Source: Halapricum salinum
GTDB taxonomy: Archaea > Halobacteriota > Halobacteria > Halobacteriales > Haloarculaceae
Direction of reading: 5' to 3'
Assembly: GCF_004799665.1 (NCBI RefSeq)
Contig: NZ_CP031310.1
Coordinates: 2,472,887-2,536,886 of the forward strand
Length of the DNA: 64,000 nt
In this document: in pieces, positions 46,032-50,404 of the stretch
Position numbering within the stretch: position 1 is the stretch's first letter
Layout: every line of letters starts with the position of its first letter
The notes under the pieces: model-generated
What the model was told of the DNA's origin: nothing
Databases searched by the model: none
Seen by the model: the letters and a program-made list of their open reading frames with translations, nothing else
Translations under genes and position numbers: made by a program

Positions 46032-47426
46032 ATGGGCAATCGCTCTCGGTCGAAGAGACTCCTTCGGGCCGGGCTGGTGTTCGGTCTCGTCGCGCTGTTC
46101 CCGGGCGTCGCGAGTGCGCACGAGGTCTCCGGATCGCGCTTGCAGACGCCGCTCCCGCTGTCGGTGCTACTCGCAGGTGCGGGCGTGACTGTCGCCTCGA
46201 CGGCGCTCTGGTTGGCCGTGACCGACCGAACGCCAGCAGCCACCGACGGACGAGCCCGGAGCCTGACCGTTCCAGCGTCGGTCGCTCGGCCGCTCAGCGT
46301 CGCGGTCACCGCGCTCTTTCTCGCCGGTGTCGCGTCGGTGCTGGTGTTCGGGTTCGTCGGTCGGCAGGTCGCCGCCGAGAACGTCGCGACGGTCTTCACC
46401 TGGCCGCTGTGGTTTCGCGGGCTGGCGTTGCTCGCGCTCGTCTTCGGCACGGCCTGGCAGCTGCTGTCGCCGTGGCGAGCAATCTACCGCGGCCTCGCCT
46501 GGCTCGAAGGGGGGCAGTTCGCGGTGCTCGGTACGTACCCGGCCGCGCTCGGAGCGTGGCCAGCAGTCGTCGGTTTCGTCGCGCTCGTCGGGATCACCGA
46601 GAACCTGACCGTGATCCCGCGGTCCCCACGTCTCACCGGCGTGGTCGTCGCGGCGTACGGGCTCGCGATGGTCGCCGGGGCGACGCTGTTCGGCACTGCC
46701 TGGCTTCGTCACGCCGACCCGCTGGGTGTCTTCTATCGTCTGTTCGGTCGCGTCGCGCCGCTCGCGTTCGACCGAGGCGAGCGCGGAGGGTACACCGTCT
46801 CGCTGCGATCTCCCTGGACGGGGTGTCTCGATCCGTTCGCGAGCGTCTCGCTCGTCGTCTTCGCGATCGCCACGGTGTACACGGTGAGCTTCGACGGCTT
46901 CACCGAGACGCGGGCCTACCAGACGGTGTTGTTCGATCTCAGGGGGCTGCTCGGGACTGGCCCGGAGACGAGTATCCTCCTGTACGTCTTCGGGCTGGCC
47001 GGGTTCGTCCTCACGTTCGCGGCAGCGAGCTGGGCCGTCGAGCGACTGGGTGGCTCGCCAGATCGTAACTGGGTCACAGCCGCGCGCTGGTTCGCGCCAA
47101 CTGTCCTTCCGATCGCCGGCGCCTACGAGGTCGCTCACAACTACCCCTACGTGATCCGAAACCTCGGGACACTGGTCTCGATGTCCGTACCCGGAGTCGA
47201 ATCAGTCGACGTGCTCGGCTGGCTCTCCGTCTCGCTGTTCTGGGGTTCGCAGGTCGTCCTCGTCGTTGCGGGCCACGTCGTCGCAGTCGTCGCTGCCCAC
47301 GCCGTCGCGCGCTCTCGATACGACTCGCCCGCCGCCGCCCGGCGCGGTCACCTGCCGCTGGTCGTCCTGATGATCGGGTATACCGTTCTCTCGCTGTGGA
47401 TCATCTCACAGCCGGTCGTCGGGTGA
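46032..47426 (+). CDS. Polytopic membrane protein of unknown function
   Basis: 464 residues from the ATG at 46032; the longer open frame upstream is antisense to the propeller gene. A signal-like start ends at VASAHEVSG. About 11-12 hydrophobic segments follow (PLSVLLAGAGVTVASTALWL, FRGLALLALVFGTAWQLLSP, AWPAVVGFVALVGITENLTV and more). A long loop carries FYRLFGRVAPLAFDRGERGG. I do not recognise the family. It may be energy- or copper-related given its neighbours; this is weak. Confidence 0.6.
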   Translation: MGNRSRSKRLLRAGLVFGLVALFPGVASAHEVSGSRLQTPLPLSVLLAGAGVTVASTALWLAVTDRTPAATDGRARSLTVPASVARPLSVAVTALFLAGVASVLVFGFVGRQVAAENVATVFTWPLWFRGLALLALVFGTAWQLLSPWRAIYRGLAWLEGGQFAVLGTYPAALGAWPAVVGFVALVGITENLTVIPRSPRLTGVVVAAYGLAMVAGATLFGTAWLRHADPLGVFYRLFGRVAPLAFDRGERGGYTVSLRSPWTGCLDPFASVSLVVFAIATVYTVSFDGFTETRAYQTVLFDLRGLLGTGPETSILLYVFGLAGFVLTFAAASWAVERLGGSPDRNWVTAARWFAPTVLPIAGAYEVAHNYPYVIRNLGTLVSMSVPGVESVDVLGWLSVSLFWGSQVVLVVAGHVVAVVAAHAVARSRYDSPAAARRGHLPLVVLMIGYTVLSLWIISQPVVG

Positions 47427-47506: not shown

Positions 47507-50404
47507 ATGTCCGATTCTGGTGACGATTTTGTGAACTCCGCCCGGGGTATTCGCTCCGGGAGCTGTGTCCTCGACGGTGAGTATCTCTCTCAGTACCGCG
47601 GTGACCTCACGGACGGGCAGGAGAACGTCCGCATCTTTACGACCGCACCGTCGATCACGACGCAGTCGGTCCAAGACGCGTTCTGGCAGGCCACTTCGGG
47701 ATGGTTCAACCCCAGTTCACACGAGAACGTCGTCACGGTGTACGATCGAGGCAGGAGTCCGCGGCCCTGGGTCGCCGTCGAGACTGTCGACGGGGCGCGT
47801 CTCGGCGACGTTCAGTCCGAGTTGTCGATCGCGGACGCACACGCAGTCGCCTCGGATACGGCCGAGGCGCTTCGGGTCGCCGGGCTGTACAACGCGACTC
47901 ACGGGTCACTGTCGCCGACTGACATCTGGGTGACTGGTCTCTCCGGAAGCGCAGATGCGACTGCCGTCGTCGACGAATGGGGGCTCGAACGAGCCTGTCG
48001 CGTCGCCGCCGGCGAACGTCCAGTTTCCCTGTTTACTGCACCCGAGCTGGTCGACGAGCCGACTGCAGTCACGGATCAGACCGACGTGTACGGGCTGGGA
48101 GCGATCACCTACTACGCGTTGACGGGTGAACCCCCGTTCACGATTGCCGAGGTCGAAGCCGGTCCGGGTCCCGAGCAGGTGACACCACCGAGCACGCTCG
48201 TCCCCGAGCTCCCGTCGGCAGTCGACGATGTGATCCTTACGGCGTTGGCACCGACGCCCGGCGCCCGCCAGTCGTCACCTTCGCAGTTCGGGACCGACTT
48301 CTCGTTGGCGTTCCCGGACGGGTTTTTCGACTCCCGGCCCGACTCGAATCAGACTCAGACAGCGTCAACTGGACAGCCTGCTGGCGATGACCGGTCGGCT
48401 GCGAACGGCCAGCCAGTGGGCAATTCGAGTACTCACAAGCCGAGTTCTGGGCCCCAGTCCGGCGGTGACAGTACTGATCGGACGGACCCCGGCAGTGATA
48501 GTTCGTTCCCGCTCTCGCGCCGCTCCGTCCTGGGATTTCTCGGCCTCGCCGGTGGCGGTTCCGTCGTCGCCACCCAGTTACTCGGCGATTCGGACTCCAG
48601 TGGGGAGCCGACCGACGGGTCCGGTGACGAGTCGGGCAACGGTGGTTTCGCCACATCACCCGATCCGGAGACGACAGCGCCACCCCGGGAGACGCCCACC
48701 CCCGACGAACCGTCGGCCGAACTAGATCCTTCGATCTACGCGGACAAGGCACAGGAGGCCTGGGAGGTGATCACGGAATACTCCGACTCGGATGCCTCGC
48801 TCGTTCGACAGGCTCACGTTGATATCGAAGAGGCAGTTCGGGACAGCGCGATCGTCCTGAACTTCATGCACGACGTGCGCGAGCGGTTCTGGTACGATCA
48901 CGTCGACGTCCCGAAGTACGGCACGCTGGGCCCGTCTCACCAGCGACACACCGATACGCAGCTGACCGATGGAAGCACGGAACTGAACCTGTTCCTCGAC
49001 TACCTCGATTCTATCGATCCCATCGAGTCAGACGACGAGGCGTCGTCGACGGTGATCACGCAGCTCTACGAACCGCTGGTGAACTACCCCGACGGCGTTC
49101 CGGAGTTGAACAACCTACTGATCGAGGGATTCGAGTTGTCCGAGGACCAGACGACGTATACGTTCACTCTGAAAGAGGGGGTGACGTTCCACGACGGGAC
49201 GGAGTTGACGGCCCAGGACGTAAAGTACTCCTGGCGGCGGGTCGCCGAGTCCGAGAACAGCATCCGATCGGACTTCCTGCTGGACGAAACCACCGGTGTG
49301 GGAGCGGTCCACGAGACAGCCAGCGACGGAAACGTGGTTCCCGACTCGCTGGGCGTGAGGGCCGTCGACGACTACACGCTCAAACTGGAACTCGAGACTC
49401 CCAACCCAGATGCGCTGGACATCCTCACATATCCCGTCTTTTCCGTCGTTCCTGAGGGAATCGTTGGCGATATCGATGGCTACACTGGCGACGTGTCTCA
49501 CGAGGAGTTCCGACAGAACGTGGCGAACGGGACCGGCCCCTTCACGTACGGCGCCTTCACGGTCAACGAAGAGTTCCGTGTGACTCGATTCGAGGAGTAC
49601 CATGCTGAGGCAGCTGATATCGAATCGATCCACTGGAACATCGTGGGCGGTCAGGAAGAGAGGTACGCACTCGCTATCGAGAAAGAAGCCGACATCTTCC
49701 AACTGCCGACACAGTACTACGACCCGGGGAACGTAGACGCGACGGAGGACGACCGTGGGCGTGAGGTCGGGACCTACGGACCGCTCGACAACGGCGAGAC
49801 GGTGAACTACCTCGCCGTTCCGGAACTTGTCACGCGATACTTCGGGTTCAACGCGCGGAACGTGCCGATCGAGGTCCGGCGAGCGGTCGCGTACGTGCTC
49901 GATCAACAGGCGATTGTCGACGAGCTGTTCGCCAGCCGTGGTGTCCCCGCGTACAGTTTCACGCCGCCGGGGATCTGGCCGACCGGTCGGGGCGGGTACG
50001 AGCAGTTCGTCGACGAGTATCCGTACAGCCCTGACGAAGTGGACGTCGAGAGTGCCCGAGAAGTACTCGACGAAGGCGGGTTCACTCCGGACGATCCGTT
50101 CGACTTGACCGTCACGACGTTCGACATCGAGACGTACGTACAGGCGGCCGAGGATCTCCGTGACCACCTCGCTGGAAACGGCGTCGAGATCGATATTGAC
50201 TCGGCAGGGTTCGGCATCCTCCAGGAACGCGGATACAACGGCAATCTGGAGATGTACTCGCTGGGCTGGGGCTGGAGTTGGGACAGCCTCCGCTTCGGGC
50301 ACTACGGGTTCGAGCCGAAGAACACCGACACGTCTCGGATGCCCGAGGAAACCGACGGCTACTACCTCGACTGGCAGACCGAACTGTCCGAAGAGTATCG
50401 CTGA
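47507..50404 (+). CDS. Fusion: kinase-like domain, Tat-type anchor, circularly permuted peptide-binding (family 5) protein
   Basis: 965 residues. Residues about 15-250 resemble a protein kinase: HENVVTVYDRG, WVAVETVDGARLGDV, THGSLSPTDIWV (where active kinases have H-G-D-L-K-P-x-N), DEWGLER (for DFG), FTAPELVDEP (APE) and TDVYGLGAITYYALTGEPPF. The catalytic Asp is Ser, so it is probably a pseudokinase. A Ser/Gly linker leads to RRSVLGFLGLAGGGSVVATQ (about 338-360), a Tat-like anchor. Residues 406-485 look like the C-terminal end of an oligopeptide-binding protein (DKAQEAWEVI, RERFWYDHVDVPKYGTLGPS) and precede the N-terminal part (about 490 onward: LDSIDPIESD, TFTLKEGVTFHDGTELTAQD, GTGPFTYGAF, ...). 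The protein stops at WQTELSEEYR, where ordinary members continue with the segment found earlier. No permease genes adjoin. Confidence 0.75.
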   Translation: MSDSGDDFVNSARGIRSGSCVLDGEYLSQYRGDLTDGQENVRIFTTAPSITTQSVQDAFWQATSGWFNPSSHENVVTVYDRGRSPRPWVAVETVDGARLGDVQSELSIADAHAVASDTAEALRVAGLYNATHGSLSPTDIWVTGLSGSADATAVVDEWGLERACRVAAGERPVSLFTAPELVDEPTAVTDQTDVYGLGAITYYALTGEPPFTIAEVEAGPGPEQVTPPSTLVPELPSAVDDVILTALAPTPGARQSSPSQFGTDFSLAFPDGFFDSRPDSNQTQTASTGQPAGDDRSAANGQPVGNSSTHKPSSGPQSGGDSTDRTDPGSDSSFPLSRRSVLGFLGLAGGGSVVATQLLGDSDSSGEPTDGSGDESGNGGFATSPDPETTAPPRETPTPDEPSAELDPSIYADKAQEAWEVITEYSDSDASLVRQAHVDIEEAVRDSAIVLNFMHDVRERFWYDHVDVPKYGTLGPSHQRHTDTQLTDGSTELNLFLDYLDSIDPIESDDEASSTVITQLYEPLVNYPDGVPELNNLLIEGFELSEDQTTYTFTLKEGVTFHDGTELTAQDVKYSWRRVAESENSIRSDFLLDETTGVGAVHETASDGNVVPDSLGVRAVDDYTLKLELETPNPDALDILTYPVFSVVPEGIVGDIDGYTGDVSHEEFRQNVANGTGPFTYGAFTVNEEFRVTRFEEYHAEAADIESIHWNIVGGQEERYALAIEKEADIFQLPTQYYDPGNVDATEDDRGREVGTYGPLDNGETVNYLAVPELVTRYFGFNARNVPIEVRRAVAYVLDQQAIVDELFASRGVPAYSFTPPGIWPTGRGGYEQFVDEYPYSPDEVDVESAREVLDEGGFTPDDPFDLTVTTFDIETYVQAAEDLRDHLAGNGVEIDIDSAGFGILQERGYNGNLEMYSLGWGWSWDSLRFGHYGFEPKNTDTSRMPEETDGYYLDWQTELSEEYR

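Follow-up and report, generated by a model that had tools for sequence, protein, structure and literature searches.

In the window, by which we mean the whole stretch of DNA analyzed (64,000 nucleotides), a gene on a complete 3.45 Mb haloarchaeal chromosome (47507–50404, + strand, as for all parts of the gene given below) encodes a protein of 965 aa composed of a pseudokinase, a predicted internal twin-arginine anchor, and a circularly permuted family-5 binding protein of the order that we call type A. The PknB-like pseudokinase domain (residues about 27–265; 47585–48301) was delimited by phmmer matches to PknB and a family alignment; the same alignment places HGS (132–134; 47900–47908) at the HRD catalytic-loop position, where the catalytic Asp is lost, and EWG (157–159; 47975–47983) at the DFG position, where the metal-binding Asp is replaced. 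Behind this domain come a low-complexity linker rich in S, T, D, P, G, and Q that is predicted to be intracellular (266–335; 48302–48511), a hydrophobic segment with an internal twin arginine (LSRR), predicted from its sequence and the RR segments of relatives to be a Tat signal-anchor (336–362; 48512–48592), and an acidic low-complexity linker predicted to be extracellular (363–406; 48593–48724). The binding-protein half opens with the family-5 C-terminal segment (407–480; 48725–48946), which was recognized by alignments and weak PDB profile matches; a short junction that links the former C- and N-termini (481–489; 48947–48973), defined by sequence comparison, then leads into the N-terminal, core, and middle segments (490–965; 48974–50401), assigned by Pfam, alignments, and a Foldseek match to OppA. 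Pfam reports SBP_bac_5 (PF00496) at residues 534–926 (2.9e-60; 204.8 bits against a gathering score of 32.4) and a sub-threshold Pkinase match at 71–212 (24.6 bits against a cut-off of 31.7). The ORFs of a same-genus locus (L011) and of Halapricum sp. CBA1109 (L076) are alike in length and identity. No ABC transporter genes lie beside the window gene; for a family-5 protein, adjacent genes for its own permease and ATPase are usual but not a requirement. A scan for promoters and terminators was uninformative. On the same strand, ~80 bases upstream, a gene at 46032–47423 encodes a polytopic membrane protein that matches nothing in Pfam and is a possible partner of the fusion protein.

The outer half of the protein is an OppA/DppA-type binding protein that has genuinely undergone circular permutation. 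We rotated the window domain to the canonical order and doubled it, so that relatives could align without a break whatever their circular order. Each relative aligned to this query once, over about 555 residues, and the start points of the relatives fell into a few discrete clusters in a search of 294 Halobacteria genomes that scored at most two candidates per genome. Given these single alignments and discrete start points, the swap is not a product of chance. An earlier note on this DNA had placed the C-terminal segment ahead of the N-terminal segment, and it was right to do so: residues 407–480 stand directly before an N-terminal segment that starts at about residue 488, each segment occurs once, and residues 490–965 run to the point where the C-terminal segment would normally come next, as the note had also recognized. 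Its exclusion of a frameshift is borne out by an intact ORF, and a frameshift or a missing downstream piece was rejected because no second copy of the C-terminal segment was found downstream of the gene. The junction at 481–489 contains no remnant of a signal peptide.

An AlphaFold2 model of residues 409–965 based on a 33-row alignment had a pLDDT of 88 and a pTM of 0.84, with the displaced C-terminal segment at pLDDT 77–96 and low confidence in the last 25–30 residues; it superseded a 13-row run (pLDDT 58.5, TM 0.4), and a search for extra alignment rows among viral contigs found none. Foldseek matched the model to OppA (6dqq; E 1.4e-26, TM about 0.6 over 475 columns), identifying an OppA/DppA fold in an alignment that is sequential and therefore cannot include the permuted segment. 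A profile of the C-terminal segment matched only family-5 proteins in the PDB, near their C-termini, at a weak E of 0.07. The model, the PDB matches of the segments, and canonical and permuted homologues in the same operon position all agree with circular permutation as the earlier note had conceived it.

That note had regarded the permutation as peculiar to the fusion, a view that we could not uphold, as the same order is present in a kinase-free family and was hence inherited. The closest case is P0002, a 649-aa protein of the same genome that has the same order, is 69% identical over the domain, and begins with a Tat/lipobox signal but carries no kinase; its gene heads an intact opp operon, with OppB-, OppC-, and ATPase-type genes downstream. 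The window order also occurs at about 45 other haloarchaeal loci, so that a search of other haloarchaea for the same arrangement recovered the permuted order many times, but the fusion of the pseudokinase to an Opp-type domain only in this genome (294 Halobacteria genomes searched). A search of the genome for PF00496 turned up just three genes, each of them permuted. Because type A proteins keep the whole PF00496 match, their permutation is invisible to Pfam annotation.

Doubled queries distinguished the canonical order and types A to D in Halobacteria, with breakpoints between the middle and C-terminal segments (type A, the window order), before the middle segment (type B), within the core (type C), and just before the strand equivalent to FDLTVTTF of the window protein (type D, found with a separate doubled query). 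Of the ORFs at the fetched loci, 46 had the canonical order, 47 were of type A, 16 of type B, and 2 of type C; these counts describe the fetched loci rather than frequencies in nature. Type D is represented by P0003, encoded in the same genome as the window gene (G000:C1:2805519-2807273; L009:2520-4277), and the large ORFs flanking it included no transporter genes. P0003-like matches were found in 95 of 146 Halobacteria genomes, most of the matches listed being full length and in the same order, and the part that is displaced in type D aligns with the C-terminal lobes of family-5 proteins of known structure (1xoc 372–503, 3.6e-6). A control search of Bacilli with one doubled Paenibacillus protein as the query gave only canonical starts among the matches listed (105 of 151 genomes with matches). 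In types A, B, and C, dppB lies downstream of the permuted gene, as it does for most canonical genes, and among permuted genes with a covered downstream flank (that of L059 was too short) the window gene is the sole exception. The export signal is likewise kept in front: an RR signal stands at the new N-terminus of 46 of the 47 type A proteins (lipobox in 44 of 47), and both RR signal and lipobox are present in all type B (16/16) and type C (2/2) proteins. The type A protein L083 and the canonical protein L101 are 75% identical and differ by a clean shift of the last ~80 residues.

A quick tree of the un-permuted sequences required at least seven changes of order. In a careful tree, the window protein and P0002 were sisters (100/97), as were L083 and L101 (98/88). 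The type A protein L022 is 65% identical to the canonical L025 and 38% identical to the window domain, and holding it with the main type A rows was rejected (AU p = 1e-8), from which it follows that the type A order arose at least twice. Canonical rows also lie inside the main type A clade, where a single type A origin was not rejected (AU p 0.061), and we therefore claim an independent origin only for L022; reversals or extra origins may have occurred within that clade. L037, a type C protein, falls on starred branches inside the type B clade (L030–L035, L113–L120), a position that suggests that an already permuted form was permuted again. Models in the literature explain permutation by duplication followed by partial deletion (PMC3281007), and our guess is that the haloarchaeal permutants arose at the DNA level in this way. 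No tandem-duplication intermediate, that is, no second domain copy, was found among the fetched ORFs of >800 aa. One of these, the 880-aa ORF L136, encodes a canonical family-5 binding protein extended by a pair of cupredoxin-like repeats and, at its C-terminus, a hydrophobic tail (PGFGVGSALTALAAGGAI); it was rejected as an intermediate because its extra part is the pair of repeats and not a second domain.

The inner half of the window protein has a kinase fold by homology, with PknB as the best PDB match to residues 71–264 (phmmer 2.7e-13). The beta-3 Lys is absent in all 14 family members aligned, the window protein reading VRIF; the HRD Asp is kept in four of the 14 aligned relatives and lost in the HGS of the window protein; and the catalytic-loop Asn is replaced by Asp in the window protein, which reads EWG for DFG. 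The "(pseudo)kinase" of the earlier note is thus a pseudokinase by all three key residues (beta-3 Lys, HRD Asp, and DFG Asp), and its reading of HGS was accurate, although the equivalent kinase motif is HRD and not HGD. Few genomes contain close relatives (6 of 294 at 1e-30). In family members the pseudokinase and an internal RR segment are joined to a PstS-like binding protein (L038), a LivK-like binding protein (L138), two cupredoxins (L034), a beta-propeller (L148), or an unassigned domain (L142), and in P0004 (L008:1149-4046) and L147 the pseudokinase is C-terminal, behind outer and membrane parts. The LivK-like fusion L138 has a fuller catalytic loop (HLDLKPDN) and still lacks the beta-3 Lys. 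The internal RR-type anchor described earlier is real: at residues 336–360 the window protein reads LSRRSVLGFLGLAGGGSVVATQLLG, with the twin arginine ahead of a mildly hydrophobic stretch, and the segment (336–362) recurs in five proteins of the family (L034, L038, L138, L142, and L148). It contains no lipobox Cys and resembles the segment of L038, unlike the lipobox signal of P0002. We predict from these features that it is an uncleaved, Tat-exported signal-anchor; alternatively, a short Tat-type segment could be cleaved, with VVA as a possible signal-peptidase site, and the two halves separated.

We propose that the window gene probably encodes a single-chain, membrane-anchored receptor formed by domain shuffling, with the pseudokinase inside and the permuted binding domain outside the cell, although its topology, ligand, and signalling are inferred. 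The outer half would derive from a duplicated opp-operon lipoprotein whose order was already permuted, and the inner half from a haloarchaeal PknB-like pseudokinase family with its own internal twin-arginine anchor. Binding of an oligopeptide or a similar ligand might close the outer domain, and the anchor might relay the ligand-induced change to the pseudokinase, which would serve as a binding scaffold or allosteric switch and not as a phosphotransferase. The dN/dS between the window domain and P0002 is about 0.23, with changes concentrated at third positions, indicating that the binding domain is under purifying selection. A receptor is the best reading because the architecture recurs with PstS-like and LivK-like domains and the window gene has no adjacent permease. 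The permutation preceded the fusion and was therefore not made for receptor function.

An accessory role in transport, in which the permuted domain hands substrate to the opp permease encoded beside P0002 and the pseudokinase is a tether that does not signal, would fit the purifying selection and the 69% identity to P0002, whose gene opens an intact opp operon, but we consider it unlikely. The window gene has lost the lipobox and the operon neighbourhood of its relatives, and the pseudokinase family has sibling fusions to binding proteins, which favours a receptor over a transport part; moreover, the anchor is like that of the pseudokinase family and not like those of transport lipoproteins, and elsewhere the family carries unrelated outer domains, including cupredoxins. 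A chance fusion without function that is heading to decay might be suspected from its occurrence in one genome only and from a window branch longer than that of P0002 (0.37 vs 0.18). We hold this to be less likely still, as the 965-codon frame is intact, the conserved residues of the binding protein are retained, and the low dN/dS and third-position bias speak against decay.

It is highly improbable that the protein is an active receptor kinase that still binds nucleotide and catalyses phosphotransfer in some unusual way. Some pseudokinases are active, and L138 of the same family retains HLDLKPDN, but no aligned member has the beta-3 Lys, and in the window protein the HRD Asp, the catalytic-loop Asn, and the DFG Asp have given way to S, D, and E, respectively. 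We found nothing in favour of an artefact in which residues 407–480 are an unrelated insert or the order stems from misassembly or a frameshift, and give it practically no weight. The idea of an unrelated inserted domain was discarded because the segment is homologous to canonical C-termini, and misassembly because another locus of this genome shows the same order, as do many other genomes, tens of them independent; the close pair L083 and L101 carries opposite orders. For the receptor and the permutations together, we lean slightly toward the view that haloarchaea repeatedly rotate family-5 binding proteins in place, with signal, linker, and operon slot kept, at least four breakpoints, and one form apparently re-permuted, and that one permutant was drawn into a one-chain pseudokinase receptor family with exchangeable outer domains.

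The window domain is similar to the family-5 proteins OppA, DppA, and NikA (PDB 1dpe, 6dqq) in sequence and fold, and its relatives share their operon context, whereas in the window copy the segment order is rotated, the lipobox and neighbouring permease genes are missing, and a pseudokinase is attached. The glycine-betaine (ProX/OpuAC) and molybdate-binding proteins, natural circular permutants treated in the CPSARST paper, likewise have a periplasmic binding-protein fold and are distant structural relatives with <24% identity (PMC2395249); in the haloarchaeal proteins, by contrast, identity between the permuted and canonical versions reaches 75%, both occupy the same operon slot, and there are several breakpoints. 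Circular permutation is known in many families, among them the DNA methyltransferases, which also form one family with several circular orders (PMC2395249, PMC3281007). Unlike the methyltransferases, the haloarchaeal protein is a secreted lipoprotein, and rotation affects its mature domain but leaves the signal peptide and linker ahead of it. PknB-type transmembrane Ser/Thr kinases have the same layout as that predicted for the window protein, with an N-terminal kinase fold inside and a C-terminal sensor outside, but the window protein lacks the catalytic residues, has a twin-arginine segment in place of an ordinary transmembrane helix, and carries a permuted binding protein outside. In the GlnH-GlnX-PknG system of Corynebacterium, an outside binding protein steers an inside Ser/Thr kinase through three separate proteins, in contrast to the single polypeptide with a pseudokinase found here (PMC9769921).

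In the literature searched, which lay mostly outside subscription journals, there was no earlier report of recurrent, recent, in-place permutation of family-5 proteins, nor of a haloarchaeal fusion of kinase and binding protein or of this pseudokinase receptor family, and the first of these appears to be new to the literature. Natural circular permutations are usually ancient and visible only through structure comparison. Here, canonical and permuted forms share as much as 75% identity and occupy the same operon slot in culturable haloarchaea, and the origin and effects of permutation are therefore directly testable. Receptor-type signalling in archaea is, to our knowledge, poorly known, and the pseudokinase family is a candidate one-chain sensing system for archaea.
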